Shown here in pieces: positions 5,069 through 30,684 of a stretch of DNA of 32,467 bases; the first letter of the stretch is position 1, and each line of letters begins with the position of its first letter. Under the pieces are notes generated by a model. That model was not told where the DNA came from. It saw nothing but the letters and a program-made list of their open reading frames with translations, and did not search any database. Source of the DNA: a virus; IMG/VR virus record IMGVR_UViG_3300044615_001496, positions 1 through 32,467 of that record; one strand, given 5' to 3'. The position numbers were made by a program, and so were the translations under genes.

Positions 5069-5076
5069 TGTAATCC

Positions 5077-8000
5077 TTAATTAATTCTAAATTTATCTTT
5101 AGATACAGCAGTAATTGTAATTATACCTGGTACAATTGTTTGATTCTCTAAAGCTGAAATAAAAGCTTTTCTTCCAACCTTGCCTTCTTCATTAAATAAT
5201 GAAATATTAACTGAATCAACGCCCCTTACACTTGCTGCTGAATATATTATATCTGAGTAATCAATCCTTGATCCTAGTGATCCGGTATTTAATATTCCAG
5301 ATATCGCAGTTATTACATTTTGTTCTATTGTATCTGCTTCTGATATAAAGTCTTCATTTACAAGTATTGTTCCAGAGACATCAACACTTATGGAGAATGC
5401 TTCCTTAACAAGTACGTCTGCAGTAATAGGTCTGGACTTCTCAATTGCGTTTGTAACATCAATTACTAGATTGTTTATATTATAAGTTATAGTCAGTCTT
5501 TCGCCATCCTTTGGAGCTATAAAGTCATAATCACAATAATAACTAGTTGAGCTTGTTGGCTGTGTAAAAGCCAAGACTTCAAGAGTTCCCTTTAAGATTC
5601 CTGCAGTGCTTTTAAATCCTGATGATATAGAAATCTTGTTTATTATTCCATATGAATTATTTGTTACTTTTGTTCCAGATGATCTAAATGAAACTTCTTC
5701 TTGTGCTAAAAGATTGTAAACCTGGCATGTAACATATATGGTGTCACCAGAATTAAAGGATGATGGATTGGATGACAATGCTGATGTTGAGAAGCTTAAA
5801 GTAGAAAGAGAGGTATCTACTGCGCATCTCTTTTTGTCATAAACATTTGAGTAAAGTGAATAACCGTGTACATCTAATGATGTTGTTGCTGATCCTGACT
5901 TTACTTCAACTTTATTTACTCTTGCAATTCCATATTGAGATGTGCTGACAGTTCCAACAAACCCCTTTAGTGCATTTGTTATATCAACTACTCTTCCAGA
6001 TGTATCTTTTCCTTGTACCTCTAAAACATAGGTATTAAATGACACGCCCTGTATTCTAAACTTTCCAGGGTTTGCTATATTTGCAGCTATAAGCTTTAGC
6101 TGTGTTGGGCTATATCTTATTGTATCAGTTTGAATACCAGAAGTAAATTCAATATCCATTGGCTGCCTTAGTGTATTTACAGTATCAGTTGATAATATTA
6201 GCTCATTTGATCCAGATATACTTAAAATAGGAAGCTTTGATAAATCAGCCTGTGATACTAGCTGGTTTATATTTGCAACATAATCAATATAAATAGGAAG
6301 ATTATTTGTATAAAGTATGTTAATTATAGATTCTAAATCGTTAGCTTCTCGTACTGATTGTCCAGGTAAAGTTATTGTTGAGTTGGCATAGCTTGCATCA
6401 GATTCATCAAAATTATATAATTCAATTTTATTATAACTTACCTCTACAGAATCACCTATTACGGCGAGTGAGTCTGAAGGAAGAATGATTTTGTAGCCCG
6501 TTATTTTTCCGTCTGATTTGGTGGTATTAAATAGTTCTAAACCATCTAGAGATCTATATACTCTGACTACATTAGTAATCTCTGAGCCTATATCAACACC
6601 ATAAAGTGTCTCTCCGTCAATAACAAACTGCTCTACGACTGTAGTAATTCTTGTATCTGTATATACAGATGATATTGCTGATATATTATTTGCAGTATTT
6701 ACAATATATTCTGATGCATCCAAGCTTAGCTCAACTGAAGACTCCTCACCCATTATTCCGTTTGGAGAAGTCCAATCTATAGTGTCTTGTGAGCTAGAAT
6801 ATGAAAAGGTTGAGATATTCTTTAGGCCAGCATAATCTATTGCTTCATTAAAGTATTTTCTCCATATGTAATTAACTACGACAACATCTGATGGAGATGG
6901 TAATTGTTTTCCGGATATATAAACTTCTCCAGCTAGATTTAATCCAGATACTGAATCTATATTTTGATTTGAAACCAAATATACTTCACCAGTTGTTACG
7001 TTTTGAACTCTTGATACTCTTAAAACTGGATAATGATTTAGTTTAATCATAGACTTAGATGACTTGCTTATTGTTGCAATATCATTTGTCTCTACGATGT
7101 CTGAATATACTGAATTTAAATTGCTTATTCCGCTAAATAAAACAGAATCTATACTGTTATTCTTTCCTTTAGTAAGAACTTCTCCAGTTACAGCTTTCTT
7201 ATTTGATATAAAATGAATCTTATCAAAACCAAACGGACTTCCTCCTACGTCTGGAGAATCATCTTTTACTAATTCATAGTTTCCAAGAACATTTCCTGAA
7301 TTATCTGTATAGCTCTCTACAAGCTCTCCTGATAAGCTTCCAACAATAGAGACCATTGTTGACACTGGCTGTAAAGGTATATTTCCACCATTCATTGCAA
7401 GAACTCTTCTTTCATTTATTGTTCTTGTTAAATCCTGATCTGATTGTCCCAATACAAAGTCATTCTCAGCTCTTGTTGCATCTCCTTTTCCAGATAAATC
7501 TGTATAAATATACGACTCTGATACTTGGCTTGTTTTATTTCCAAGAACGTATATGTCTACTTTTCCGCCGGTTCCTGAGTTTATTATTCTAGTTGAATTA
7601 TCAGAAATAGAGATTGTTTCTGTTCCATCTCTTAGCATTAGTGAGCTTCCAGGCTCTACAACCAAAGCGTCTTGCACTCCACTTACAGACAAGGCTACAT
7701 TTCTGTAGCTTGCGCTTGTTCCTATGTTTGCCCCACTAAATACAGAAAGTATTCTTGATCTAAAAGAGTCATCTTGCTCTCTTGAAGTACCACCTGCAAA
7801 TGATGACAAATTTGTTACTGTTAATCCATTGGCCTCAAGATCTATTGTTATAACCTGTAGTGATGATATATTTCCTGATTCACCAACTCTAGAGCATTCT
7901 ACAGGTATTTCTATTACATAGTTTGCTGATATACCTGCAATATTTAAAGATTTTCTAAGTCTATTTGCATTTGCAGACAGTCTTCCTTTATCGGAAACAG

Positions 8001-8376
8001 AAAGAGAATAGTTTCCCAAAACTTTATAAACAAATCCATTTCTTGCAGTTACTGTTGTTCCAGTTGGAATAGGAATATCATAAGTTAAAGTATTTATACA
8101 CACAACTATATATCCAGAAGCTGGAGATCCAGTGGTTCTCGCTATTCCAAAGTTACTTGCTAAATAATCTAGGTCTTGTCCAGATGAGGTTGCTAATGAT
8201 TGCTTCTGTGATACAATATTTAATAAGTTATAAAACTTAGATATCTGATCAGCAGTAAGGTCTATAAACAAATCCCTAGATACAGTACCAGGCTTTGTAT
8301 CTAGGTTTGGCTGGCTTATCTTAAGCCTTTCAATCATTGAATTTACTATTTCACTAAATCCTCTTGTTGTTGACAT
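5077..8376 (-). CDS. Baseplate wedge protein, gp47/J-like (T4 gp6 family), enlarged
   Basis: The protein has 1099 residues and looks like a baseplate J-type wedge component, which forms the ring around the hub and triggers sheath contraction. The N-terminus (about 1-140) has the family pattern: a helical start, 'KPGTVSRDLFIDL', then 'SGQDLDYLASNFGIART' and a beta segment 'IPIPTGTTVTARNGFVYKV'. The C-terminal part (about 983-1080) has the matching end, 'RPITADVLVKEA' followed by 'SRIDYSDIIYSAASVRGVD'. P2 J and Mu gp47 are only about 300-360 residues, so roughly 700 residues of beta-rich sequence are inserted between the conserved ends. The start has a good site, AAGGTG, just upstream. It lies 8 bases after the gp25-like gene, as in P2, Mu and PBSX. 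Confidence in the family is high; the function of the insertion is unknown. Confidence 0.5.
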   Translation of the reverse strand: MSTTRGFSEIVNSMIERLKISQPNLDTKPGTVSRDLFIDLTADQISKFYNLLNIVSQKQSLATSSGQDLDYLASNFGIARTTGSPASGYIVVCINTLTYDIPIPTGTTVTARNGFVYKVLGNYSLSVSDKGRLSANANRLRKSLNIAGISANYVIEIPVECSRVGESGNISSLQVITIDLEANGLTVTNLSSFAGGTSREQDDSFRSRILSVFSGANIGTSASYRNVALSVSGVQDALVVEPGSSLMLRDGTETISISDNSTRIINSGTGGKVDIYVLGNKTSQVSESYIYTDLSGKGDATRAENDFVLGQSDQDLTRTINERRVLAMNGGNIPLQPVSTMVSIVGSLSGELVESYTDNSGNVLGNYELVKDDSPDVGGSPFGFDKIHFISNKKAVTGEVLTKGKNNSIDSVLFSGISNLNSVYSDIVETNDIATISKSSKSMIKLNHYPVLRVSRVQNVTTGEVYLVSNQNIDSVSGLNLAGEVYISGKQLPSPSDVVVVNYIWRKYFNEAIDYAGLKNISTFSYSSSQDTIDWTSPNGIMGEESSVELSLDASEYIVNTANNISAISSVYTDTRITTVVEQFVIDGETLYGVDIGSEITNVVRVYRSLDGLELFNTTKSDGKITGYKIILPSDSLAVIGDSVEVSYNKIELYNFDESDASYANSTITLPGQSVREANDLESIINILYTNNLPIYIDYVANINQLVSQADLSKLPILSISGSNELILSTDTVNTLRQPMDIEFTSGIQTDTIRYSPTQLKLIAANIANPGKFRIQGVSFNTYVLEVQGKDTSGRVVDITNALKGFVGTVSTSQYGIARVNKVEVKSGSATTSLDVHGYSLYSNVYDKKRCAVDTSLSTLSFSTSALSSNPSSFNSGDTIYVTCQVYNLLAQEEVSFRSSGTKVTNNSYGIINKISISSGFKSTAGILKGTLEVLAFTQPTSSTSYYCDYDFIAPKDGERLTITYNINNLVIDVTNAIEKSRPITADVLVKEAFSISVDVSGTILVNEDFISEADTIEQNVITAISGILNTGSLGSRIDYSDIIYSAASVRGVDSVNISLFNEEGKVGRKAFISALENQTIVPGIITITAVSKDKFRIN

Positions 8377-8384
8377 GTTTCACC

Positions 8385-8813
8385 TTATACTAATCTTATT
8401 GTTATATTATCAAATACTTCAGTAAGTTGCTGTGTTAATATTGATAATCTTAGGTTATACATTCTTGGGTCCAGATTATCCCTTCCTACCTGCACATCAA
8501 GTACAGAGACTATTACCTCTGATGGATAAAGCGTTTGATACCTTGCTTGAGATCTTTGCATGCTCATTAATGTATTTATAGATGATATAACTGAACTTTT
8601 AATTTCATTTTCAGTTATTACTATATCTGCAGATCCTATTTCTAATTGACTCAAGTTACTTCCATAGTTTACATGATACTTATTATCGCCAAATGTTGTT
8701 AGCAATATCTTAAGTATATCTTGTCTTAACTTCTGATTGCCGCTAACCAAAGAAATAGTACCATCTCCATTTAGCTGCAAGTCTCCTTTTGCTATCTTTA
8801 AATCAAATGACAT
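8385..8813 (-). CDS. Baseplate wedge protein, gp25/W-like
   Basis: This 142-residue protein has the length and layout of gp25-like wedge proteins (T4 gp25, P2 W, PBSX XkdS). These sit at the sheath-baseplate junction and help nucleate sheath assembly. Visible family signs are an N-terminal 'GDLQLNGDGTISLVSGNQKL' strand region, the helix 'RQDILKILLTTFGDNKYHVNYGS', and a C-terminal strand after 'YPSEVIVSVLDVQV'. The name 'lysozyme-like' used for this family is historical and no catalytic activity is implied. It is followed after 8 bases by the gp47/J-like gene, which supports the call. The ribosome-binding site is weak (AGG about 14 bases upstream), and a 68-base gap precedes the gene, the second-largest non-coding gap in the window. 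Confidence 0.5.
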   Translation of the reverse strand: MSFDLKIAKGDLQLNGDGTISLVSGNQKLRQDILKILLTTFGDNKYHVNYGSNLSQLEIGSADIVITENEIKSSVISSINTLMSMQRSQARYQTLYPSEVIVSVLDVQVGRDNLDPRMYNLRLSILTQQLTEVFDNITIRLV

Positions 8814-8881
8814 TTTTTATATAACCTAAATATTCAAATAAAAATAATAGATATTTATGCTACATAAAATATGGAAAAGGT
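8814..8881 (-). promoter_or_regulatory. 68-base AT-rich gap with a late-promoter-like CATAAATA
   Basis: This is one of only two gaps longer than 30 bases. On the minus strand it contains CATAAATA (8859-8852), one base from the TATAAATA late promoter core of T4-type phages, about 38 bases before the gp25-like ATG. The surroundings are extremely AT-rich, so the match may be chance, and similar octamers occur inside genes. I see no convincing hairpin here. It may simply be a spacer. Confidence 0.5.
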
Positions 8882-10873
8882 TTATATATTTTTTAACAAA
8901 TCTATAAAAATATTATAATAAGTATAACAAACTGCAGTAAGGTCACTTAGCGCCAAATATACAGCCTTTTCATCAACCTTTCTTCTAAAGTCTTCTGAAA
9001 GCTTTAACTCATTAAACATAAGCTCTCTTTGGCTTCTGGTTAGTAACGCAACTAAAGTTACTTCGTCTATTGTTAATAAAGATATTGCAACAACTAAAAA
9101 GTCTACCATTCCGATTCCACTTATAATACCAATAGAGGTTTCAATATCTTTTGTAGGTTTTGTTCCTGCCGAAGCTGCTGCGTTTCTATCTCTCTTTATT
9201 TCATCTGATCTTTTGTTTATATAATTTCTTGGAACTTGAACTATATTTAATAGGGATGGCATAAGTGATGAATTTGATATTGAAGAATCTCTTCTTGTGC
9301 TAGCCTGAAGATCAAGAACGCTCTGAGCTTCTGTAGTTCCAAGCACTAACATCAAAGAGTCTTCTATCAAAAGCATTGCGTTTAAAGTCTTCTCCTCTTC
9401 TTGTTCTCCTGTGGGCTTTGCTGGTATGGCGGCAGTTGGTAATGCCTTCTCTGTAATGCAGCTTGAAAACAAAGTCATTTTATTTTTCTTTTGTGACTTT
9501 GATATTGCAGTTATAGACATTCTTGTGTTTTTTGCTAATACTGCCAAAGATTCTAGCATTCTAACTATTAACAAAGACTCTATATACCCAAGTGTACTTC
9601 CTGATATATCATCTACCGGAATCTGTCCTTCATCTGACAGTACCATCTCATTAGATATATATTGTTTTGTTCCAGATATTACGTCCATTCTTATTCTTAT
9701 TATTGTTTCTAGCAATGATGACTTCAAAGTCTTCCTATTTAAAACTCTTTTATTCTTAGGAAGAAATGGCTCAGCTATAACCTTATCTCCATCATTTATA
9801 CACTTTGCAATCCTTCCATCTTGAACCATAGGAAATAATAGTGAGCTATAATTGAAAAATATATTTTCAAGATTGTTTACAGTCATGTCTGATTCTTTTT
9901 TATAAACTAGCTCGTACAGCATAAAGCCTATATCGTTGATTGATGGAGCATTATCAGCTTCACTTGAATTTTTCCCTATCATATAAATATAAGTCAAAAA
10001 ACTGCCGTAAAATAAGAAAAGATTATCTGAAAAGAAAGCAACGCCTTGTTCAAAGTCTTGACCTCTCATATCTTTAGATATCTGTACGAATAAATCAGAA
10101 TCAATACCAGATTTATCTCCAGAAAACAAATCAGCATCTGGACCAGTAATATCCAAGGTTTTACTCACCCTGTCTAATAGAAGCCTATAGTTTTCTTTAT
10201 AGTTATCTTTGGTTGAAGAAAGCAATGCATTCATTGCATCTGACATTTCTATTATATTTTTATAATATTCCTCGCTTAATCCATATGTTTCTTTTAATAA
10301 TATTTCAGAATTTAACTGCGAATACATATCATAGTGTGATATTGATTTTGAGCATCCATATATAGCAGAGGCTTGCCTTGCATCAAGAAAGCTTTCAATA
10401 TTCTTTTCATCTACTGCATAGTTCTTAAGCTCTCCAACTGTATTTATTATTGGAAGCTTATATCCAACCTCTAAGCTGTCAGAGGTTGGAAGGCCTACCA
10501 TTCTATAGAAAGCATTATGAGCACTTTCTATTACAGTTGTTTCGTTTAAAACTTCGCTACCAGTAGTTTCTTCTGTTTCTCCATATTTTGATATATTCTT
10601 TAATACATTATAAGGCATATATCCAGATCTTGTATTTTCTATCTCATTAAATAATCTTTCAAACTCTGCATTGATCATTTGAAATGAATATTCATAAATA
10701 TTGTTTTTTTGATCTACAGTATCTTTGTTTGTATCAGGCTCTTCGCCTTCTTGAGGATACGCTGATGCTAGCAGCTCAACAGCCTGGGTTAATGTTTGAA
10801 GAAGATCTGCCTTGCTAGTCCTCTCTCTGCTGCTTAGAAGGTTTATTATTTTTTCTATATTTTCAGTATTCAT
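8882..10873 (-). CDS. Unrecognised baseplate-locus protein, 663 aa
   Basis: I do not recognise a family. The protein looks mainly alpha-helical, beginning 'MNTENIEKIINLLSSRERTS', with an acidic linker near residues 40-55. A hydrophobic stretch lies at about residues 575-615 (IGIISGIGMVDFLVVAISLL then TIDEVTLVALL) that could be one or two membrane-type helices or a buried core. No catalytic motif stands out. Its ATG shares one base with the stop of the 2613-aa gene (TAATG), so the two are probably translationally coupled and may act together. No strong Shine-Dalgarno is visible, which fits reinitiation. It sits between the spike/2613-aa pair and the gp25-like gene, so a structural baseplate role is inferred from position only. 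Confidence 0.5.
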   Translation of the reverse strand: MNTENIEKIINLLSSRERTSKADLLQTLTQAVELLASAYPQEGEEPDTNKDTVDQKNNIYEYSFQMINAEFERLFNEIENTRSGYMPYNVLKNISKYGETEETTGSEVLNETTVIESAHNAFYRMVGLPTSDSLEVGYKLPIINTVGELKNYAVDEKNIESFLDARQASAIYGCSKSISHYDMYSQLNSEILLKETYGLSEEYYKNIIEMSDAMNALLSSTKDNYKENYRLLLDRVSKTLDITGPDADLFSGDKSGIDSDLFVQISKDMRGQDFEQGVAFFSDNLFLFYGSFLTYIYMIGKNSSEADNAPSINDIGFMLYELVYKKESDMTVNNLENIFFNYSSLLFPMVQDGRIAKCINDGDKVIAEPFLPKNKRVLNRKTLKSSLLETIIRIRMDVISGTKQYISNEMVLSDEGQIPVDDISGSTLGYIESLLIVRMLESLAVLAKNTRMSITAISKSQKKNKMTLFSSCITEKALPTAAIPAKPTGEQEEEKTLNAMLLIEDSLMLVLGTTEAQSVLDLQASTRRDSSISNSSLMPSLLNIVQVPRNYINKRSDEIKRDRNAAASAGTKPTKDIETSIGIISGIGMVDFLVVAISLLTIDEVTLVALLTRSQRELMFNELKLSEDFRRKVDEKAVYLALSDLTAVCYTYYNIFIDLLKNI

Positions 10874-13800
10874 TAGTTTACCATGTTTGTAAATTCTACT
10901 TGAGGTAGTGTAACTGATGCGCCTTCATTATTAGATTCAAAGATGTTCAAAGTTTTTGGAGCAACAAATAATATAGTAAGAATTCTATCAACCTTTATCA
11001 AAGATCCTGGTGCAAATAAGTCTGGAGCGGTATCTGTAACGTTTGGTATACATCCTTCCTCAACTGTCTCTACTTTGATACCTCTTTCGGTTACTGCCTG
11101 TATGGTTACATCACAAATACTTGCCTTGATTGTTACTTTTCCTGGTGTTGATGACTTTATTGCAACTGTATATACTGATCCATCTTTATTAAACAAAGTA
11201 TCTTGATCATTATTCATCTTTACTAGCTCGGCACCAGAACTGGTTGAATCAGATAAAATATCAATTCTAATCTTTTTTCTTAAATCAAGAGTGTCTATAA
11301 TTTGATCATCATATGAATCTCTTGGAATTATTTGTATTATTGCTCTAGATCCGGCAGAGACAGTAACAGAGTCGCCTATTCCAGAGGCGTATTCCATTGC
11401 TCCAGTTATTGTTGGCATTGTTGCTACTGCTCCGGCAAGCTCTACCTCTGTAATGGTTGTAGTTGGATCAATATAATCATCTAAAGGTGTTTCATCTTTA
11501 TCATCAAGTAGCTTAAATGTTGTATTTAGAGGATTTATTGTAAACTTACAAGAATCATCTATTGCAAGATTTGTACATGCTACAAATGAATCATATAGTG
11601 TTTTTATATCTGGTATTGATATCTTCTCTGGTACTCCTCCGTTTGCCATCACATTTCTTGCTTTTGAAACTATTCCCTTATCTTCATCTAAAAAGAACCC
11701 AATAAAGTCATCTAAACATCTGCTGTATGGCTCTACAACGTCTCCATTAAAGTCAAGAGTAAAGCCTGGCATATCAAGTAATAGCTGGTTTGCTTGAGAA
11801 GTTCCACATGCTGCTGCGATGTCGTCTGCAACCTGTCTTAAGTCAACAAAGTATATCTGTGGAAATACAAATACATCAATATTTGCAACTGCATACCTTA
11901 GATCATCGGTCTCTAAGATTGTTCCGTTTACAAACTCATAAACACCATAGTCTGGATAAGGAGGCTCTGCTTGAATTGGATTATCAGGCAAGAATGTATT
12001 TAGATATGTCTTAAGCTTACTTGCTCCATTCTTTCCTACGTAGTTTCCAGAGCTTCCTATGGATCCGCTGTTAAATAACTTGTCATTAAGTTTATTGTAA
12101 TTTATATAGATCGTATATGGTCCTCCATTAGGACCTGATACAAAGAATGGCTTTGATGATCCAAACAATGTCTCATCAGTATCTCTGTCTACTATATCTT
12201 CTCCTCCGTTGTCATTTATTTCTATATACTGTGTTGCAGTTAGAGACTGGAAGAAAGATGCATTTGCTTGCAACTTCAATAATGCATCACCAAGATCATT
12301 TTCATAACCGGCAGATCTTGATGATTTAACTACATCTCCACCAGAATAGTCTAGAAGATCTTTTACTATATTTGATCTTATTTTCTTATTTTCACTAACA
12401 TAAGCATTGGTCTTTCTTGTTACTGATTCTTCTTCTTTATCAAAAGATCTGGAAGTTGCTGCTGGGAAGTTAATCATCTTGGCAAAGATTGTATCTATTA
12501 CTGGAACATAGCTTCCGCTTTCTGTTTGCTCGAGCCTTATATTTAGACCACCATCTTCAACGAAGTATACATTAAATCTATCATCAACTATTGCAAAAGA
12601 TGGTATACCTCCAAAGGTTTTAGTTACCTGCCTTGAAGTTACTGTTGCTTCTCCAGTAACTGGATCAACACCACTCTCATATACATCAATATTTGCTATC
12701 AATGGCTTTGGCTTAAATGAGTAGGTTGTATCGCCTATTAGATTTGAGTCAGATCCAACATACTCTATGAAGTCTGAGAAACCATCTATTGGGCTTACTA
12801 GCTTTATCTTATCTGCATTGAATGAAGAAGAGCTTTGTGAATAAATCTTTAGGTTACTTCCAGATGATGCTAAGAAAGCAGGATTTGAGTCCAGTGGGAA
12901 GTTTTCATCTATAACCTTTCCTTTTAGATTGAAAAAACTTGCAAATGATGTAAACAATAGATTGTTAGTTAATCCTTTATTATTAAAACTAAACTCAACA
13001 AATCTTGGATCATTTTTTGGATTCAAGAAAGGAATTCCAAAGCTAAACTTTTTCTTTGCCTTTGTACATGACATTGTAAAGGTTGCATTAAAATCTCCAC
13101 CCTTAAATCTAAGTTTTTCATAATTTATATTATCAATTAGTCCATCACCATCGCTATCTCCAGAGAAATAACCTCCAGGCTGAACTGTCTTAGGCTCTTG
13201 TGTTTGAGAGTCAATTAGAGCTGGCAAGGTATTACCTGCATAGTTAGAATTATCTATTACGATTAAGTCTGTATTTAAGTCTACTGCTTCCGATGTTTTG
13301 TACAATACATTGTTTATCTTATTTCCAGACTCATTTTTTGGAGGAGAGTTATAATCAATGTCTGTTACACTTTCTGGATCATGTGATGATGAATCAGGGG
13401 TATTACCTTCTGATCCAACTCTTTCTGAAGATAGATTTGTATAAGTTTGAGCCATAGGAATCATAGCATCTGGAACTAGCTGACCATTTGGAGCAACCTT
13501 TCCAACTATCAAACCTGCCAACATAGAAGGATCTATACAGCCTGGATCATCTGGATCTTGATTTACTTGACATGGGAACGCAAATGCAAGCTGTAGAAGC
13601 TCTTGTATCAAACCTATTATCTGTAAAATAGGCTCCATTACTTGAAGGTCTGCTTCGATTGTTATTAGATGCTCTTCTAAGGTTATTTCTAGATTTTTAA
13701 TAGCTTCAAATGATTTTTCTTTTATAGCTCTTTCTAATGCATCTATTATTTCATTTGTTGCAACAACTATTGTTATTATCTTTTGAATAACACATAGTAG

Positions 13801-16800
13801 AAGTTCTAATATATGAATTAGAAGTGTTAAGAATAAGACTGGAAGTGCTAATTGTGGTAGTAGCAATAGTAAGTCAAATAAACATACAAATAGTCTAATT
13901 ATTGCTAAAGCCAATTTAACTGGATTTGTTAAAGCACAAAGAACGTCTATTATACAGAAAATAACTTTTATTGGTACATAAATTATTCTCAATGCTTTTA
14001 GCTGGAAGGCTATCTCTGCAGTTAGATGGAATGAGAAGTCACAAAAGCTTCTAATAAAATCTTGTGCAGCAAGAGCCTTATCTGTAATCCATGGACCTAC
14101 CTTTAGCTTTGCTTGCTTTATTTTATCATCAATCTTCTTCTTTGACTTCTTTCTAAGCTTGTCAACACCACTCTTTGCTCTTTCCATAGCCCTTTCGACA
14201 TCTTGTCCATATGTTGGATCTATAGTTCTGGATATCTTTAACCTATCTTTGTTTGTTGTACTTATTGAAAGCTTAATACAATCATTGGTTTCAAATAACT
14301 GAATTCTATCGCTAGGATTTATTGTGGCTCTATAAAGAAATGTTCCATCTGGATTTCTTTCTATAAATGTAGATGATACTCTAAATTTAGATAACTCTAC
14401 CTTTAAATCAGCATCACCATCTTTTACATAAATATCTATTACTATAGGATTTGAGCCTATCTTTAAATCTCTATAGTTATCAGATGTGTATGTTTGCCCA
14501 TCTACAACTATTTTTAATATCTCTGGAATTCTTTGCTTTATTGAGTGTGCTTTTGCAATGTGTGTTGTAACAGTTACAAATAGCTCGCTACCGTCACTAG
14601 AGATAGCAGAGTAAGCAGAATTTACTGGAATTGATTCTTGGATCAAACACTTATATTGTGAAAATGAAATTACATCTAGCGGCCTACTAGCGTTTCCAAT
14701 TAATTGCTCTATTGACTCAACAGCGGCAAATACACCGCTCGAAAGCTTGTCAGTTATTGCAGAGGCCTTTCTTAATAGCTCATTTATTTGCTCTATCTTT
14801 GCCATTATAGCTGCAGAAGCAGAATTTACATTTGCAAGAAGATCATCAAGCTGGCTTTGAAGACTTGCTACGTCTACTATTATAGCATCAGATTCAGCAG
14901 CTTTATCCTTCTCTTCTTGTGTTGAAGCCGGATCATCAGCAGTTGATTTGTTTGAATTTGTTATATTTTCAATCTTTTGTTTTGATTCTGCCTTGTTTGC
15001 TTCAGCTTTTTTATTTGCATAATCCCTTGTAACTATTGGATTTATTTTTCCAGATGATAACTCTACGCAATCTTCCTTTACCCTTCCATCTTCAATCTTT
15101 TGATCAGACAAGACTGCGCCATAAGATGATGCTCCATTGCTACCAACTGTAAGTGTAACATCTGTATTTATTACAACTGGATTTGAAAACCTTATGTATG
15201 GGGGTAGCTTCGTGCTATATTCTGCCAGACCATCATTTGCCGCCCAACCACTTGTTGTTCCAGGGCTTAGTAAGTATCCAAAATATTGTAGCAATCCAGA
15301 ATACTTTGTGTCTCCGGTTTTTGTATTTACTGGAATTATTGCTTGTGTCTTTATAAGCTTATTTTGATTGTAAGCATTATATGCACCAAGCTCTCTTGAA
15401 AACTCAGATGAAATTGAAGCAATATCATTTGATATTGTAAAATCAGATTTTATTTTTTTAGAAACTTTTGTATAAAGATCTGAACTGCAAGATCCTGAGT
15501 GCTCAAGATTACTTCTAACAACCCTTACCTCTGAGTAACCAATCTTAGGTAAGTTGTCTATATTCTTAAAGAAAGCAACAGCAACATTCTGCTCTAAATA
15601 TTTTATTTTCTTAATTTTAAACTTATTAATTTTATTATTTTCTATGTAAAAACTATGAGTTTTATCTAGAGATCTTGATCTTCTATTTGGAGCCTTAAAC
15701 AATACCATTAGATATTTTAATTTATCATTTGATGATATTGGTGCTTCTGCCCTTATTTTTTTTATCGAATCTTCTGATAACATTCCATTAGGAATGGCAT
15801 TTTTTATTTTCAAAAACAAGCTATCTGTTTTGCTGTAAGCTTCGCCTATATTAAAGTCTGCCGCACCACCATGCTCTCTGTCAATCTCTGCAAATAATCC
15901 TAGAATATGTGGAGGAGTAATAAAAGCAGGCTTATCTTCTTGGGTTTTTCCAAGCTGCAATATAGATACTGGGAAGTTTGTAGATCCAGATGATATATTT
16001 ATTGTTTTATCGCTAGTTATTTTTTCATTTGAGAATATTAGATAAGATATATGAGCACCAGAAGTCTCTATAAACTGAGTTAGGTTTATTGGAGTATTTT
16101 TTGCAGGACCTGGAAATTTTATATATACTGCATTTCCAATATCGGCCTTCTTAAAATGCTCGTCTCCATATGACCATTCTAATTTTTTATTAAAATAATA
16201 ATCTTCCCCAGATACTGTAACTTTTGTTACATCAGAGTCCAAACCAACGGACTCTATTATTGCTTTATCTTTTGTTGCTAGATAGCAGAACAGCCTTCCT
16301 TTTGATGAATCTCCAAAAACATAATTATCTTTAGAATTCAATGCAACGCCTATATTGCTAACTCCATCAAAGCTTAGCGGTATTGAATCTGGTCCTTTAT
16401 TATTTACAGCTGTGTCTGCTAAAGATTTTGGCTTTCCTTCTACAGAGGAGTAAATTGAGTTTAGCGAAGTAAAAGTTAGGGCTGTGTTTATATTTCTTTC
16501 TAAGTCTACATCAGCTATGCCGTCTTGACTTATTAATATTTGCTTTGTATTTGTTCTTTTATTTGCTGTCTTTTTTGTAGTTACATATACATCGAACTTT
16601 CCAAGAAGAGTTAATACACTTGACCATAGCTTTGTAGAAAGTATTGATATTTTATCATTTGATGCTATAAAGCCTGATTCAGTATTATTTATAATCTGTC
16701 TATCACCAGTTGGAAGAACTATATATACTGCTTCTGCATTTTTTAAATTCTCGCCAATAATACTAAAGGATAAATTCTTAGATGGGGTTATGGAAGTTCC

Positions 16801-18714
16801 GCCATAAAATCCATCTGGAATTATTTGAGTTATAGAGGATCTAGCTATATTAAAGGTTATGTTTGGGCCTGGCAATCTTAGAAACTGTCCAGTTGCATTA
16901 TGTATTATATACAATGCAAATTGAACGTCATTTAAATTAATTATGCCGTTATCTGTTTCACTTTCTAGTGAATAAATTGTCTTTAATTTATCAAGTGCTT
17001 CGCTAGATAAAGAAAGGTTTATAGACTCATCGTCCTCTTGAGAGCTTAATGGAAGCCAATGTTTTGGAAATGATAGCTCATCTAATGATGATGATATTGG
17101 ATAAGAATTTATATCTTTAATTTTAAATAAATACTCTGGTTTTGATCCAGACAAGGCAATTCTTGAATATTGATTACTTGCAGAATATAATGCTAGATCA
17201 TTCTTATCTGTTTGATCAGTAGATAAATCATTTTCCCTATCTGAAAGAATTATTTCTGGCCTATTTATTGCAGAAAGAAATGAGTCAAGTGAGTCTACTT
17301 TTGCTAAAGACTTTGAACTACTTTGGTGAAGTGGAATAGAGTTATATTGAGAAAAAAGGGCTTCAGCCTTTTCATTATAATCCTTGAAGTATTTAAAATT
17401 TATATCAACAGGAATAGGGAAAGCTTCAATAAGCTGATCTTTATTTATTGCAAGGCCATTACAACTTTGATTTAACTTTGTTATTGTATTTAATATATTA
17501 TTGTTTTTAATTGAACAGTCTAACAATGGTGATAGCTTAAATGAATAATCATTTAAGTGGCCATATGGAACTTTCTGTATTTTTTCAACAGTAATAAATT
17601 TATTTTGCTGATTACTGTCACCTTCTAAATAATCTATTGTTGTATTTTTTACTTCTAAATTTGGAATCTGAACATATTTAAAAGCCAAAGCTTTGCTCAA
17701 TGAATTTTGTGATAAGCTTATGTTAAGAACAATTTGTAATAATGACTTTTGACCATCGTTATCTATATAAACAAAATCACTATAAGACTCTCTTGAATCT
17801 TTTCCAGTTAAGTTTGGAAATTTTATATAGAAAGAAGATGTTGACTCTATAAATGTATAGTATCCTGCAAGAGACATTGTATCTGCAAACAAAGAGTCTT
17901 CTGATAGTCTTATTACTGGAAATAGCTCAATTAAGGCAGCAGTAATTACTGCATCTACAATCCATGGAGAGCTTGATAAGTTTAAAAGTGCATCATATAT
18001 ATTTTTATATGTTAGTCTTGAAGACCCAATTGTAAGAAGATTTTCTGAAAACAATCCAAGACCAGTTGTTCCATCTGAAGATATTTCAGAAAGTAACTTA
18101 AATATATGCAAAATAACTTCAAAAGGTATAAAAGATAAAAATGAAAAACTTTTAAGATCTTTATCTTCTGTAGTTAAAGTTCTTAAGTAGTTATTATAAG
18201 AATCAGTTGTATCTGTCCAGACAGTTCCTTCTTCTGGTACATATTTATTACTTAGTGTAAACTCTGGAACGTTATTCTCTCTATATATATCTTTATCATT
18301 TTGCATACCTGAAATATAATTTGATAATTTAAGCATGCATTCATTTATCGAGGTCCTCACTCTAGACATGCTCCTATATCCATCAAAGGATATCTCTCCG
18401 CCTACCACTTGTGAGAGTGACTGCTCAGCTATATTTTTCATGGCCTCTATCTTTGATAGATATGATGCCATCTGAGTTCCATTTTTCTCTACACCAATTT
18501 TAAAGCCATTATTTCCAGATACTCTTACAATTGATCCGCCATTGAATGGAACTAAGTCTCCTGAACCTGATGGAGATAGAACTTGATAACTTGGAACACC
18601 AAACAAATCGGCACCAACTGCTGCAGGATCTACTGGATTACAGTTTATATCTGCTGATATATTTACTTCTTGATTGTTAATTATTCCCGCTACAGCTGAT
18701 AGTATTGAAGTCAT
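10873..18714 (-). CDS. 2613-aa multidomain baseplate-locus protein with hydrophobic membrane-like block
   Basis: This is the largest complete gene. The start is well supported: AGAGGA lies just upstream, overlapping the TAG stop of the spike gene. I do not recognise a full-length family. Visible parts, in order: a mixed N-terminal region; an IPT/TIG-like Ig domain at about 625-715; a Lys/Ala/Glu-rich coiled coil at about 1232-1332 (SLQSQLDDLLANVNSASAAI); a basic helix at about 1509-1545 (KSGVDKLRKKSKKK); a very hydrophobic block at about 1567-1660 (KVIFCIIDVLCAL, LFVCLFDLLLLLPQLALPVL) with a weaker segment near 1700; an acidic calcium-loop motif DSDGDGLID at 1853-1861; beta-rich modules; and an Ig-like domain near 2440-2540. 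The position after the hub and spike genes suggests a baseplate or central-spike accessory. A role in contacting or crossing the host membrane is my inference from the hydrophobic block. Confidence 0.5.
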   Translation of the reverse strand: MTSILSAVAGIINNQEVNISADINCNPVDPAAVGADLFGVPSYQVLSPSGSGDLVPFNGGSIVRVSGNNGFKIGVEKNGTQMASYLSKIEAMKNIAEQSLSQVVGGEISFDGYRSMSRVRTSINECMLKLSNYISGMQNDKDIYRENNVPEFTLSNKYVPEEGTVWTDTTDSYNNYLRTLTTEDKDLKSFSFLSFIPFEVILHIFKLLSEISSDGTTGLGLFSENLLTIGSSRLTYKNIYDALLNLSSSPWIVDAVITAALIELFPVIRLSEDSLFADTMSLAGYYTFIESTSSFYIKFPNLTGKDSRESYSDFVYIDNDGQKSLLQIVLNISLSQNSLSKALAFKYVQIPNLEVKNTTIDYLEGDSNQQNKFITVEKIQKVPYGHLNDYSFKLSPLLDCSIKNNNILNTITKLNQSCNGLAINKDQLIEAFPIPVDINFKYFKDYNEKAEALFSQYNSIPLHQSSSKSLAKVDSLDSFLSAINRPEIILSDRENDLSTDQTDKNDLALYSASNQYSRIALSGSKPEYLFKIKDINSYPISSSLDELSFPKHWLPLSSQEDDESINLSLSSEALDKLKTIYSLESETDNGIINLNDVQFALYIIHNATGQFLRLPGPNITFNIARSSITQIIPDGFYGGTSITPSKNLSFSIIGENLKNAEAVYIVLPTGDRQIINNTESGFIASNDKISILSTKLWSSVLTLLGKFDVYVTTKKTANKRTNTKQILISQDGIADVDLERNINTALTFTSLNSIYSSVEGKPKSLADTAVNNKGPDSIPLSFDGVSNIGVALNSKDNYVFGDSSKGRLFCYLATKDKAIIESVGLDSDVTKVTVSGEDYYFNKKLEWSYGDEHFKKADIGNAVYIKFPGPAKNTPINLTQFIETSGAHISYLIFSNEKITSDKTINISSGSTNFPVSILQLGKTQEDKPAFITPPHILGLFAEIDREHGGAADFNIGEAYSKTDSLFLKIKNAIPNGMLSEDSIKKIRAEAPISSNDKLKYLMVLFKAPNRRSRSLDKTHSFYIENNKINKFKIKKIKYLEQNVAVAFFKNIDNLPKIGYSEVRVVRSNLEHSGSCSSDLYTKVSKKIKSDFTISNDIASISSEFSRELGAYNAYNQNKLIKTQAIIPVNTKTGDTKYSGLLQYFGYLLSPGTTSGWAANDGLAEYSTKLPPYIRFSNPVVINTDVTLTVGSNGASSYGAVLSDQKIEDGRVKEDCVELSSGKINPIVTRDYANKKAEANKAESKQKIENITNSNKSTADDPASTQEEKDKAAESDAIIVDVASLQSQLDDLLANVNSASAAIMAKIEQINELLRKASAITDKLSSGVFAAVESIEQLIGNASRPLDVISFSQYKCLIQESIPVNSAYSAISSDGSELFVTVTTHIAKAHSIKQRIPEILKIVVDGQTYTSDNYRDLKIGSNPIVIDIYVKDGDADLKVELSKFRVSSTFIERNPDGTFLYRATINPSDRIQLFETNDCIKLSISTTNKDRLKISRTIDPTYGQDVERAMERAKSGVDKLRKKSKKKIDDKIKQAKLKVGPWITDKALAAQDFIRSFCDFSFHLTAEIAFQLKALRIIYVPIKVIFCIIDVLCALTNPVKLALAIIRLFVCLFDLLLLLPQLALPVLFLTLLIHILELLLCVIQKIITIVVATNEIIDALERAIKEKSFEAIKNLEITLEEHLITIEADLQVMEPILQIIGLIQELLQLAFAFPCQVNQDPDDPGCIDPSMLAGLIVGKVAPNGQLVPDAMIPMAQTYTNLSSERVGSEGNTPDSSSHDPESVTDIDYNSPPKNESGNKINNVLYKTSEAVDLNTDLIVIDNSNYAGNTLPALIDSQTQEPKTVQPGGYFSGDSDGDGLIDNINYEKLRFKGGDFNATFTMSCTKAKKKFSFGIPFLNPKNDPRFVEFSFNNKGLTNNLLFTSFASFFNLKGKVIDENFPLDSNPAFLASSGSNLKIYSQSSSSFNADKIKLVSPIDGFSDFIEYVGSDSNLIGDTTYSFKPKPLIANIDVYESGVDPVTGEATVTSRQVTKTFGGIPSFAIVDDRFNVYFVEDGGLNIRLEQTESGSYVPVIDTIFAKMINFPAATSRSFDKEEESVTRKTNAYVSENKKIRSNIVKDLLDYSGGDVVKSSRSAGYENDLGDALLKLQANASFFQSLTATQYIEINDNGGEDIVDRDTDETLFGSSKPFFVSGPNGGPYTIYINYNKLNDKLFNSGSIGSSGNYVGKNGASKLKTYLNTFLPDNPIQAEPPYPDYGVYEFVNGTILETDDLRYAVANIDVFVFPQIYFVDLRQVADDIAAACGTSQANQLLLDMPGFTLDFNGDVVEPYSRCLDDFIGFFLDEDKGIVSKARNVMANGGVPEKISIPDIKTLYDSFVACTNLAIDDSCKFTINPLNTTFKLLDDKDETPLDDYIDPTTTITEVELAGAVATMPTITGAMEYASGIGDSVTVSAGSRAIIQIIPRDSYDDQIIDTLDLRKKIRIDILSDSTSSGAELVKMNNDQDTLFNKDGSVYTVAIKSSTPGKVTIKASICDVTIQAVTERGIKVETVEEGCIPNVTDTAPDLFAPGSLIKVDRILTILFVAPKTLNIFESNNEGASVTLPQVEFTNMVN

Positions 18715-18722
18715 TTTTTCCT

Positions 18723-21164
18723 CTAGTATTCTTGCTTTCCACTCTTTAATGATTCTATCTCTGTTGCTAGTTCAGTTAGCATCCTCTGTATAGTTTCTAT
18801 ATCAGATAGCTCTCCTGGATTTTGAGTTGAATCTGTATTTTTTGACTCAGGACTCATATATGTTGGTCTTGGCGCTAGCTGCTTCTCAGTAACTGTTACT
18901 CCGCCTGCTCCACCGTTTAAATCAATACCTGCAGGAGATTGTATACATATCTTTCCAGAGTTGTTTAGAATCATAGGAACTTCTTTTTTCATTCCTGAAA
19001 TTATAATACCCTTTTCACTAACAGAAATTAAGAAGTCAGAGTCACCATCTCTATAATTAGGTGGTTTTGATTGCTCATTGTCGCCCAAGGTGCCCTTATC
19101 AGTTAGGTTTACTCTTAAATCAAATCTTCCAGAGTTAAACCTTCCAGATGAGTCGTGGCCACCTATATTTACTAGTACACTGCCATCTGTTTGTACTGCC
19201 AAACTTCTTCCTTGATTATCCTTTCCAATCCAGCTAACTACACTTCCTTGAGTATCTAATACTACGCTTTTCCCATCAGCATCGTCTGCTCCGATTGATG
19301 CTTCTATTGATCCCTCTAGGTTTATATTTGCACTAACTCCACTATATGTTTTTGAACCTTCATTTAATCTTTGATCATCATTTGTATATGGTATATCATT
19401 ACCATTCTTATCTCCAGAGATATACTGCAATCCACCTGGATTGATAACTGGTGGAGCTGGAGAGACTCTTACTGTTGCCATAATATCTGAGTGGAATGCT
19501 GGATTTCCAGGCCTTGTTATACTTGGCTTAAATGACTGACCATATCTTTCAAATGTTTTTTCATACATATTTCCTATCAAAAGATGTGGTGCTATTTCAG
19601 ATGAAGTAATGCTTGGTATAAATACATCTTCTATATAATTTGCAGTTAAAAGCTCACATGCTGCTGGCATATTATGATGTTTTGTTATATTTATTCTTAT
19701 TCTTTGCGAATCTTGATTTGAGTCTCCAAAATAACCATTTGAATTTAAAAACTCAATACCAGTTTTTCTTACAGTAGATAGCTTCTTAGAATTTAAGTCT
19801 TGCAACGCTCTTTTAGGAAAAACAACATTTCCGTCAGCATCTCTTAGGGTTATTGGTATCTGCTCAGTTGCTGATGCCTTTGCAAAGCCAGTTGTTATAG
19901 CTGGTCTTGTTACTGCACTTCCTTTCATAAAATATGTATTATCAACATATAATATGTTTCCTGTCTTTGAACTTTTTGGAATATTTGCTTTTAAAACTCC
20001 TTCTTTATCAAATATAAATCTTGTATTTGAAAGAGAAGAAAAGTCATCCATAATTGAATCATGGGTATTTAGCTGGAAGTGATAGGCTATACCTCTTTTA
20101 AAAGATGATTTAACCTTATTCAATAGGCCATTTTGATTATTCTTGATTGAAATATAATATCTATGATTTTTAAAATCTTTTATTTCTGTTTTGTTATAAT
20201 TAATATTTATAGAATCAAATGAGTCTATTGCTGCAGTTCCAGCTATAACTTGTATGATTTGATCTGGCGTCATAAAGAATAAGTTATCATCTTTTCTTGC
20301 ATTCAAATATCTTGCAAGCTCTATGTTTGAATACGACTTATCTATTATCTTGCTATTTATAAGCTCAAGTTCTTTTTCAAAGCCTATAAATCTAGATCCT
20401 TCATTTATTTGATTTATAACTTTTCTAGTTACAGTTAAGGCTGGATTTCTAGCTTCATTCTGTGAGTAAAAATCTCTTGCAGTTGGACCGTAGATTCCAA
20501 GAGTTTTATCAAAATCATGTTGAACTTCTTTTTCTACTTTATACTCATGATTTAAATCTTGAGTTAAAATATCATTTTTTATATTGCTTATCTTACCTTG
20601 AGTAGCTCTTCCTGCTGCATTTACATTTTGTTTAAAATCTGCTACCTCTGTAATCTTTGTTTCTGAAAAGCTGCTTGATATGTAAAGGCCAGAATTATTT
20701 GAATCAATAAGCTCTATTAGCTCTCCATTATTTCCAACCTTTGAAAGCTTCAATTTTCCATTTACTATAGACCTAACCAGTACATCTCCAGGTTCTATTT
20801 CAAGGTTTCCATCGTGGATATATCCTGTTTCAGTGTCTGGCAGGGGAGACTCATAGCTATCATGCCCTTGTTTTACTGGATTGTTGATTACTTTTAAGAC
20901 CTGTGTGTGATTTGTAGTACCAGGATAAACCCTTGTTAACAATATCTTAGATCCTTCTATAGGCTTATAAAACAAGCCATGTGTACCACCAGTAAGTGAT
21001 CCAAGTTCTGTATCAATCATTTCACTTGGAGAAGATACGTGCTTAAAGATTATTCTGCCATCTTTTTCAACGCTCTTTACTATAGCCTCAGAAGGAATGG
21101 TGCTTACCAATCCTTCTTCTATATCATATTTTATTTTTGAAGTTAATTTATCTACAAATGACAT
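18723..21164 (-). CDS. Central spike protein, gp5/VgrG-like with OB-fold and beta-helical tip, no lysozyme domain seen
   Basis: The protein has 813 residues. The N-terminal region (about 20-115) reads as an OB-fold domain of gp5/gpV-type spikes ('IPSEAIVKSVEKDGRIIFKH', then 'PIEGSKILLTRVYPGTTNHT'). No lysozyme or other hydrolase motif is apparent in the middle (about 120-600), unlike T4 gp5. Residues about 618-690 form a short tandem repeat of about 22 residues with the pattern GS[IV]....IG.D..G[KR]S, followed by 'DFLISVSEKGIIISG' and 'KICIQSPAGIDLNGG', typical of a trimeric beta-helix needle. The last 40 residues are a predicted helix (IETIQRMLTELATEIESLKS). Its ATG overlaps the hub stop by one base (TAATG). 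The hub-then-spike order matches P2, Mu and PBSX. The role is to cap the tube and pierce the outer envelope. Confidence 0.5.
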   Translation of the reverse strand: MSFVDKLTSKIKYDIEEGLVSTIPSEAIVKSVEKDGRIIFKHVSSPSEMIDTELGSLTGGTHGLFYKPIEGSKILLTRVYPGTTNHTQVLKVINNPVKQGHDSYESPLPDTETGYIHDGNLEIEPGDVLVRSIVNGKLKLSKVGNNGELIELIDSNNSGLYISSSFSETKITEVADFKQNVNAAGRATQGKISNIKNDILTQDLNHEYKVEKEVQHDFDKTLGIYGPTARDFYSQNEARNPALTVTRKVINQINEGSRFIGFEKELELINSKIIDKSYSNIELARYLNARKDDNLFFMTPDQIIQVIAGTAAIDSFDSININYNKTEIKDFKNHRYYISIKNNQNGLLNKVKSSFKRGIAYHFQLNTHDSIMDDFSSLSNTRFIFDKEGVLKANIPKSSKTGNILYVDNTYFMKGSAVTRPAITTGFAKASATEQIPITLRDADGNVVFPKRALQDLNSKKLSTVRKTGIEFLNSNGYFGDSNQDSQRIRINITKHHNMPAACELLTANYIEDVFIPSITSSEIAPHLLIGNMYEKTFERYGQSFKPSITRPGNPAFHSDIMATVRVSPAPPVINPGGLQYISGDKNGNDIPYTNDDQRLNEGSKTYSGVSANINLEGSIEASIGADDADGKSVVLDTQGSVVSWIGKDNQGRSLAVQTDGSVLVNIGGHDSSGRFNSGRFDLRVNLTDKGTLGDNEQSKPPNYRDGDSDFLISVSEKGIIISGMKKEVPMILNNSGKICIQSPAGIDLNGGAGGVTVTEKQLAPRPTYMSPESKNTDSTQNPGELSDIETIQRMLTELATEIESLKSGKQEY

Positions 21165-27303: not shown

Positions 27304-29094
27304 TTAGAGTGGAGATGAGCCAGATACTCTGGAAGAGCTTGTTGCACCGTTTACTGTCACCAATTCCATTGCCTTCTCTGAAAGGTCAATTACAATCTTT
27401 CCTCCTGGGAAATTTCTTTCAAAAACATCAGAAATCTTTTGGATTAGTACGCCGATTGCCTCTGATGCCTCATCTTTTGCTCCAGCAATATCTTCGCTAT
27501 TTGGTAATTTTGGCATTTCTATATTTTTTAGATATTCTTTTAATTCTTCTGCTTTAATATCACCACTTCTAATCTTGTCCGCCATTGACTTATATATTTC
27601 ATTTACTCCACTATAAGCATCACCTATTATACTATATTTGTCATCAAAGCCTGATATAAGCGATACCACTTCCTTTGCCAAGTTTGTTGCACTTTCTGCA
27701 GCTTCCCTTGTTGCGTTTACCTGCTCAGCTATTTTATTCTGAACATCTATACCAAACTTATCTCCCTCCCCAAGTATTGCATCTCTCTCTGATATTCCTT
27801 TTTGAACTGCTGCGGCAAGATTTCTAGCACCCTCATCGTCACCCATTTTTTCTTTTTTGCCAATTTCTGGTAGCATCTCCATTATTCTGTCTAGTGATGC
27901 AGTATCTGTAACGCCAGTAAACTTAGCCATCATTTGCTCTTGCAGATAAAATGTAGTTTGCAAAGAAGAATCTTTTGCTGCTTCTTTTAGAGTTATTAGA
28001 CTACTACCTGTAAAAGACTCAACAGCTTCTCTTAAGCTTTTAGCCATCTCTACTGCTATATCTCCTTGCTTTCCAACATCATCACCTGCTTCAATCATTT
28101 TTGCTCTTGCTTCTATTGATGATCCTAATATATTTGCACCTTGTTGATTTCCAAACCCTCCCCTAGAACTCATTATATATGATAAAGTATAGTCTTTTGA
28201 TATGTTTGCCAAACTACTAGAAAATCCTTGAGCAGAGCTTGCAGCCTCCTCAACTCCAAGACCAACCTCTTTAAAACTTTTAGCAAATCCTTCTAGTATT
28301 GGTCTTGCAAAATCAACAGTTACTCCCATCTTTTGAAAACCAAGAACTGATGATGATAAAGATTGAGTAACAGTATCAATGCTTAATCCAGTATTTTTTG
28401 ATATATCTGAATATCCAGAAAGAATTTGTAATGCAGTCTCTGCTGTAACACCTTGTTTTGAAATAATATCATTTAAAGCGCCTACGGCTCTGTTTGTTTC
28501 CATTCCTGATGCAGTAGCGACTGCCATTGCAGCAGAATAAAACTTCAAACCTTGAGTTCCAGCATTTACATTTGAAAATGAGGCTTCCAATCCAATATTA
28601 GTTCCCAGTAAAGCTCTATTAAATGTTGAAATATCTTCAGCTGTCAAATGGTATGCTTTTCCAAAATCAGAAACTCTATCTGTAGCTAATGAAGAAGATA
28701 GTTCTTTTGCGTACTCAATACCTTCACCAAATGATCTTGTATAGTTTAAGTACTCTGCATCAAGTTTTCTAAAACCAGCACTTTGACTATCAAGAATCTC
28801 AATCATTGTTCCGCCAACTTTTGCAGAATCAGTTAAAACTTTAGAAAAATCCTTTACAGCTTCCGCTGATACACCGGCAAATCCGGCTAGACCTGTTAAT
28901 CCAAATTTTTCTAACAGACCTCCAAAGAGACCAGTGGTAGAAGCTGCTATCTCACCCATACTCTTTGTTGCATCGGTTATAGTTTTCATCGCCGTAGTGC
29001 TACTAGCCAAAGACTTATACATGGAATCGTTTATTTTTACAAACTCACCCATGACTTCATTTAATTGTTCTAAATTACTAGCTTGACTGCTCAT
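27304..29094 (-). CDS. Tape measure protein
   Basis: The protein has 596 residues and is helical and low in cysteine. An N-terminal amphipathic start is followed by a glycine/alanine-rich hydrophobic patch (about residues 50-80: TTGLFGGLLEKFGLTGLAGF). Long predicted helices follow, including 'KIAEQVNATREAAESATNLA' near residue 460. This composition, and its place immediately after a frameshifting tail assembly chaperone, identify a tape measure protein. It sets tail length and is packed inside the tube. The size is close to T4 gp29 (590 aa), which would predict a tail of about 90-100 nm. No peptidase or lysozyme motif is seen. GGAG lies about 8 bases before the ATG. The gene is followed 28 bases later by the adaptor candidate. 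Confidence 0.5.
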   Translation of the reverse strand: MSSQASNLEQLNEVMGEFVKINDSMYKSLASSTTAMKTITDATKSMGEIAASTTGLFGGLLEKFGLTGLAGFAGVSAEAVKDFSKVLTDSAKVGGTMIEILDSQSAGFRKLDAEYLNYTRSFGEGIEYAKELSSSLATDRVSDFGKAYHLTAEDISTFNRALLGTNIGLEASFSNVNAGTQGLKFYSAAMAVATASGMETNRAVGALNDIISKQGVTAETALQILSGYSDISKNTGLSIDTVTQSLSSSVLGFQKMGVTVDFARPILEGFAKSFKEVGLGVEEAASSAQGFSSSLANISKDYTLSYIMSSRGGFGNQQGANILGSSIEARAKMIEAGDDVGKQGDIAVEMAKSLREAVESFTGSSLITLKEAAKDSSLQTTFYLQEQMMAKFTGVTDTASLDRIMEMLPEIGKKEKMGDDEGARNLAAAVQKGISERDAILGEGDKFGIDVQNKIAEQVNATREAAESATNLAKEVVSLISGFDDKYSIIGDAYSGVNEIYKSMADKIRSGDIKAEELKEYLKNIEMPKLPNSEDIAGAKDEASEAIGVLIQKISDVFERNFPGGKIVIDLSEKAMELVTVNGATSSSRVSGSSPL

Positions 29095-30678: not shown

Positions 30679-30684
30679 CTCCTT
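30679..30684 (-). promoter_or_regulatory. Strong Shine-Dalgarno of the tail tube gene
   Basis: AAGGAG with a 6-base spacer to the ATG at 30672, partly overlapping the TAA stop of the sheath gene. This is the best ribosome-binding site in the window and fits the very high copy number needed for tube subunits. Confidence 0.5.

Follow-up and report, generated by a model that had tools for sequence, protein, structure and literature searches.

The window analysed here, the whole of a 32,467-nt (32-kb) virus record, carries a run of putative tail genes on its minus strand, where the order of transcription is sheath, tube, chaperone, P0009, P0008, P0004, hub, spike, BIG, P5, gp25-like protein, gp6/J-like protein, and P0007 (Table 1). 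Sheath, gp25, and gp6 were named by PHROG matches, the chaperone by a weak match, and the tube only through a PHROG "virion structural protein" family; hub, spike, and tape measure were named by position and general features, without a family match, and the putative spike matched nothing in PHROGs or Pfam. BIG, the subject of this analysis, is a minus-strand ORF of 2613 aa, intact from ATG to stop. It is encoded before gp25 and gp6, and the next gene after gp6 is P0007. The sheath ORF (30683-32467) has a frame still open at the window end, and so the window's sheath is probably cut off there; in five relatives (L003, L004, L009, L011, and L013) the sheath ORFs span 953-1098 aa, and the segment corresponding to the window's 575-aa ORF is preceded there by ~380-520 additional residues at the N-terminus.

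Table 1. Features of the BIG locus, in window coordinates.
Feature	Coordinates	Strand	Basis
BIG, 2613-aa baseplate-locus protein	10873..18714	(-)	Intact ORF; homologues share gene order in relatives
N-terminal ~1480 residues of BIG, lineage-specific, absent from 672-731 aa versions, low conservation	14275..18714	(-)	
Coiled-coil-like helical region, aa 1281-1340	14695..14874	(-)	Low-confidence model and sequence
Ig-like domain, aa 1392-1487	14254..14541	(-)	AF2 strands; VIA Z 5-6, a modest score
Basic stretch, aa 1508-1538, charge not conserved	14101..14193	(-)	
Conserved hydrophobic helical block, about aa 1553-1715	13570..14058	(-)	Conservation and alignment
Helix h1+h2, aa 1557-1596	13927..14046	(-)	AF2 and conservation
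Most hydrophobic stretch, aa 1571-1657	13744..14004	(-)	KD19
Helix h3, aa 1598-1617	13864..13923	(-)	AF2
Helix h4, aa 1620-1666	13717..13857	(-)	AF2
Helices h5a/h5b, aa 1669-1711	13582..13710	(-)	AF2
Calcium-type loop DSDGDGLID, aa 1853-1861, shared by a minority of relatives	13132..13158	(-)	
C-terminal region, ~aa 2443-2545, probably Ig-like (Big_1-like)	11080..11388	(-)	Placed by alignment with minimal versions
P5, 663 aa, beside BIG, one hydrophobic helix (aa 577-612)	8882..10873	(-)	
gp25-like sheath initiator	8385..8813	(-)	PHROG match
gp6/baseplate J-like wedge protein	5077..8376	(-)	PHROG match, E 3.5e-40
Putative spike, 813 aa, directly before BIG	18723..21164	(-)	Gene order and glycine-rich repeats in sequence
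Putative hub, 1679 aa	21164..26203	(-)	Gene order; weak match to unnamed PHROG only
Putative tape measure P0008, 596 aa, maximum KD19 1.10	27304..29094	(-)	After tail-assembly-chaperone match

The order hub-spike-BIG-P5-gp25-gp6 was found in nearly all relatives' loci that extend far enough, and the protein carrying the hydrophobic block described below was encoded after the spike wherever a contig shows that region. Three exceptions were seen: L117 has extra ORFs between the spike and the block protein (2919-5206, one of them on the opposite strand), and neither P5 nor gp25 was detected there; L109 has one more ORF between P5 and gp25; and in L052 the BIG gene is split. Judging from this conserved position among the structural genes of a contractile tail, BIG is probably a component of the baseplate in uncultured jumbo phages with contractile tails. 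That BIG might itself be the tape measure was rejected by its position after the spike; the tape-measure slot after the tube and chaperones is held by P0008 and its homologues where loci show it. The hydrophobic helix of P5 (window 9038-9145) comes after a Gly-x-Gly-x-x-Asp-like motif, and most relatives retain it, at differing levels of hydrophobicity.

An earlier note on this DNA had described several hydrophobic runs of the Ile/Leu/Val/Phe type at about residues 1567-1660 of BIG, and hydropathy analysis (Kyte-Doolittle, KD; 19-residue windows, KD19; cut-off 1.6) bore this out. KD19 was at least 1.6 across residues 1571-1657, with a peak of 2.69, and the best 85-residue mean was 1.97, exceeding the maximum of 1.38 in 1000 shuffles of the protein as well as the control values of 1.64 for P2 gpT (the highest), 0.54 for Mu gp42, and 0.44 for T4 gp29. 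The single 19-residue peak was less exceptional (shuffle maximum 2.88; 500 shuffles of BIG). Since shuffled sequences also reach such a peak, the case rests on how long and how conserved the block is and not on any one peak. Hydrophobicity was retained in 48 of 48 aligned sequences, down to ~20% identity (peak KD 2.2-3.45), distant relatives being the more hydrophobic (up to KD 3.45). In the window's own block, runs free of D, E, K, R, N, Q, H, and P are at most 9 residues long; L116, L117, L119, and L120 have an uninterrupted non-polar run of 19-24 residues in theirs.

AlphaFold2 (AF2) modelling of residues 1540-1722 (48 sequences) gave a pLDDT of 72 and a pTM of 0.45, with helices h1+h2, h3, and h4 followed by two helices at 1669-1690 and 1693-1711. 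In this model the helical secondary structure of the block is credible, while the predicted arrangement is not. A confident soluble helical bundle, which the earlier note had set against a membrane role, did not emerge from this AF2 run on the monomer; a bundle formed between subunits could escape such a prediction. Both h3 (~20 residues) and h4 (47 residues) are hydrophobic, h2 has only ~16 residues between prolines, and charges lie inside the helices. In h2, h3, and h5b, polar residues were gathered in a single sector of ~60 degrees (concentration 0.88-0.99), with a polar fraction near 0 in the sectors facing away from it; h4 had a looser stripe (0.69) and h5a none. These figures, obtained on related sequences with analyst-chosen thresholds and with helix limits taken partly from a moderate-confidence model, describe a pattern and are not significance tests. 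Polar residues in h3-h5 recurred at ~3.45 residues per turn, as in coiled coils. A wider model of residues 1270-2080 (34 sequences; mean pLDDT 68) was largely beta outside the block. As predicted, the shared core of BIG combines a ~160-residue helical block, hydrophobic on most faces save for a thin stripe of polar residues, with a C-terminal part rich in beta structure downstream of it.

Among the flanking modules that the earlier note had listed, the Ig-like domain was recovered before the block in the wider model. A coiled coil before the block found some agreement in a helix predicted at 1299-1338, but only at low confidence. The basic helix has its composition (14 K/R and 4 D/E at 1508-1538), but its charge is not a family trait, the aligned segments having a net charge of -7 to +8; likewise, the calcium-type loop is present in the window but has counterparts in just 11 of 34 representatives, the window included.

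Alignments identify the block as the slowest-evolving part of BIG, under strong constraint. BIG and its nearest relative, L001, were 73% identical overall and 95% identical at residues 1540-1735 (96% in the best 190-residue window). Mean column identity in the block was 63% across 34 representatives, most of BIG being far lower, and against the more distant L013 the block was ~60% identical, near the values for sheath (59%) and tube (61%), as compared with 28% for BIG as a whole. Recent recombination was considered as a source of this conservation and rejected, since synonymous divergence resembled that of the rest of BIG: fourfold-site divergence from L001 at residues 1501-1700 was 0.31-0.37, at the low end but within the range of the rest. 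The conservation therefore appears to reflect mainly purifying selection, not recent exchange. D1590 is invariant and R1607 and D1614 nearly so, all three inside helices, and D1590 is accompanied in h1+h2 by the invariant C1587 and C1593. Positions such as 1603, 1610, 1640, and 1644 take K, E, Q, L, or F among relatives. The long versions also have conserved cysteines in their C-terminal part (BIG residues 2303, 2333, 2380, 2389, 2534, and 2555), and minimal versions have a Cys cluster immediately downstream of the block; these residues may form disulfides or bind metal.

Three scans of IMG/VR found the block on ~64 contigs of up to 435 kb, some of them near-duplicates, and each of the 16 records searched whole contained one match. 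Family members range from 672 to 2763 aa. In distant contigs, the BIG slot holds a protein whose block starts near residue 50-70; nine such minimal versions are complete (672-731 aa; L110-L113, L115-L117, L119, and L120), three are cut by contig ends (L108, L114, and L118), and L109 has an intermediate version of 1554 aa. In a reciprocal search, a profile of the minimal versions retrieved the long clade, including the L001 contig at E 3e-4. Since the 672-731 aa versions begin near the block, the block and the C-terminal part are, on sequence comparison, the shared core of the family, the ~1,480 residues N-terminal to it being lineage-specific. Long and minimal versions lie on opposite sides of one branch each in the gp6 tree (100/99 and 99/95); the tree is unrooted, and since its root is not fixed, gain and loss of the N-terminal part are both possible. 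That the parts of BIG are separable is shown by the L052 sequence (5702-12700), where three consecutive ORFs encode 733, 495, and 1056 aa, the last being the block plus the C-terminus. In L027, BIG is split by a single-base difference from L026 that is probably an assembly error. In L121, L122, L128, and L130, which form part of the minimal-version clade, the tube profile matched two nearby genes.

Sequence searches with BIG or the block returned nothing usable from Pfam, PHROGs, the PDB, or a cultured-phage collection, two scans of genome_contigs found no relative, and profile searches of phage G, LR745208, T4, P2, and Mu, run with positive records as controls, gave no match. One member matched crAss tail hub B in Pfam at E 0.086, which was treated as chance. 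Foldseek gave no match at E 0.001 for the multi-domain model against the PDB or for the block model against BFVD. The best VIA score of the block model (Z 9.5, under the level meaningful for helical bundles) was to a designed transmembrane hairpin, listed alongside soluble hairpins. Three minimal versions weakly matched PHROG 305, a tape-measure family (best E 0.004), and the match fell over the block in the minimal version shown; it may reflect composition only, and BIG itself matched neither PHROG 305 nor any other tape-measure family.

The expectation in the earlier note that hydrophobic helices belong in tape measures held for T4 gp29 and P2 gpT but failed for Mu gp42 and phage G gp183, and the companion expectation, that they do not occur in a protein encoded after the spike, has to be relaxed since T4 gp7, a baseplate protein, has such a segment. 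In the loci carrying BIG, none of 13 putative tape-measure ORFs in a first set reached a KD19 of 1.6, and 1 of 10 in a second set did so (1.71); both sets include near-duplicates, and the tape measure of L123 was assigned by position only. Mu and phage G weaken the simple argument that, with no hydrophobic tape measure in these phages, the function has passed to BIG: since their tape measures are also without hydrophobic segments, the tape-measure argument is suggestive only.

The analysis thus shows a genuine hydrophobic block, predicted to be helical, that is encoded after the spike and is more conserved than any other part of BIG. Both readings that the earlier note had offered, a pore or membrane-contact device and a hydrophobic bundle buried in an oligomer, gained partial support, each with evidence for and against. 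Considering sequence and model together, we put the chances at about even that the block is a baseplate-borne module that contacts a membrane or inserts into it. Several features favor this: 85-residue hydrophobicity above every control and shuffle, the inside-out amphipathicity of h2, h3, and h5b (looser in h4), the long non-polar runs of L116, L117, L119, and L120 within a family of 48 sequences that all keep the hydrophobicity, putative tape measures mostly without hydrophobic segments, the weak PHROG 305 match of the minimal versions, and long AF2 helices without a confident compact fold. Opposed to it are the charged D1590, R1607, and D1614 within helices, the short h2, and the interruptions by polar residues or proline that limit non-polar stretches in the window's block to 9 residues. 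Residue-by-residue conservation also fits tight packing better than lipid-facing surfaces, and together with the T4 gp7 precedent and the polar spacing of ~3.5 residues per turn it leads to the main rival reading, to which we give a lesser but appreciable chance. The block could be a permanently buried oligomerization core in which helices of several subunits, with an internal polar network, hold the spike or hub to the wedges and never meet lipid. The invariant polar residues and cysteines, the coiled-coil-like periodicity of h3-h5, and the tolerance of K, E, Q, L, or F at 1603, 1610, 1640, and 1644, which suggests water access, are all consistent with such a core, and gp7 indicates that a baseplate protein may carry a membrane-like segment. 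However, an 85-residue mean of 1.97 combined with a ~60-degree stripe in most helices is far beyond usual soluble bundles, and minimal versions L116-L120 place aliphatic residues at the polar positions of h4. It is improbable that the block acts only in assembly, for example by attaching to a chaperone or to the inner membrane during baseplate construction, with no role in ejection; the hydrophobic regions of the TP901-1 tape measure have been argued to serve chaperone recruitment and not membrane insertion (PMC5099701), but the BIG gene lies beside spike and wedge genes, away from the chaperones.

If the block is a membrane module, several copies of BIG would surround the spike or hub with their hydrophobic faces packed together. 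On contraction, the blocks would reach the host membrane and insert with their polar stripes inward, where they could assist in forming or sealing the DNA passage, and the single hydrophobic helix of neighboring P5 perhaps takes part. Such a membrane role is proposed elsewhere for tape measures with hydrophobic segments. A stronger version, that this large jumbo-myophage group moved membrane crossing from the tape measure to a dedicated baseplate protein beside the spike and that several copies of its polar-striped helices insert after contraction to form the DNA channel, seems to us rather unlikely. How phage DNA passes the cytoplasmic membrane after contraction is a long-standing open question, and the block is a defined ~180-residue domain, conserved across jumbo phages and encoded beside the spike, that is suited to expression and insertion tests. 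Should the membrane reading be true, these phages may keep their membrane-crossing part in the baseplate and not in the usual tape-measure protein; should the block instead be a buried core, it would be a useful warning that a hydrophobic stretch in a baseplate protein need not be a membrane span.

Among known systems, the Big_1-type Ig-like domains of intimin and invasin weakly resemble the C-terminal domain of minimal versions (E 0.025 and 0.18), a likeness confined to the C-terminal part and to a common structural module from which no function is inferred. T4 gp7 is, like BIG, a large baseplate (wedge) protein with a membrane-like segment (residues 879-907, KD 2.07), which its annotation lists as a predicted integral membrane domain; however, this is one 29-residue segment as compared with ~87 residues in BIG, and gp7 is encoded after gp6, a place held by P0007 in the window. 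BIG is thus unlike a gp7-type wedge protein in not directly following the gp6/J homologue. The hydrophobic tape measures (P2 gpT, T4 gp29, TP901-1 TMP, and diffocin CD1366) share with BIG a long hydrophobic helical stretch, and with its minimal versions the weak PHROG 305 link. In contrast to them, BIG follows the spike, consists largely of beta structure in its modelled part except for the block, and belongs to loci that also encode a separate putative tape measure of ~600-745 aa; moreover, its block is Leu/Ile/Phe-rich with invariant charges, whereas that of P2 gpT is Ala/Gly/Ile-rich. In diffocin, five predicted membrane helices per subunit have been proposed to form a pore (PMC10996793).
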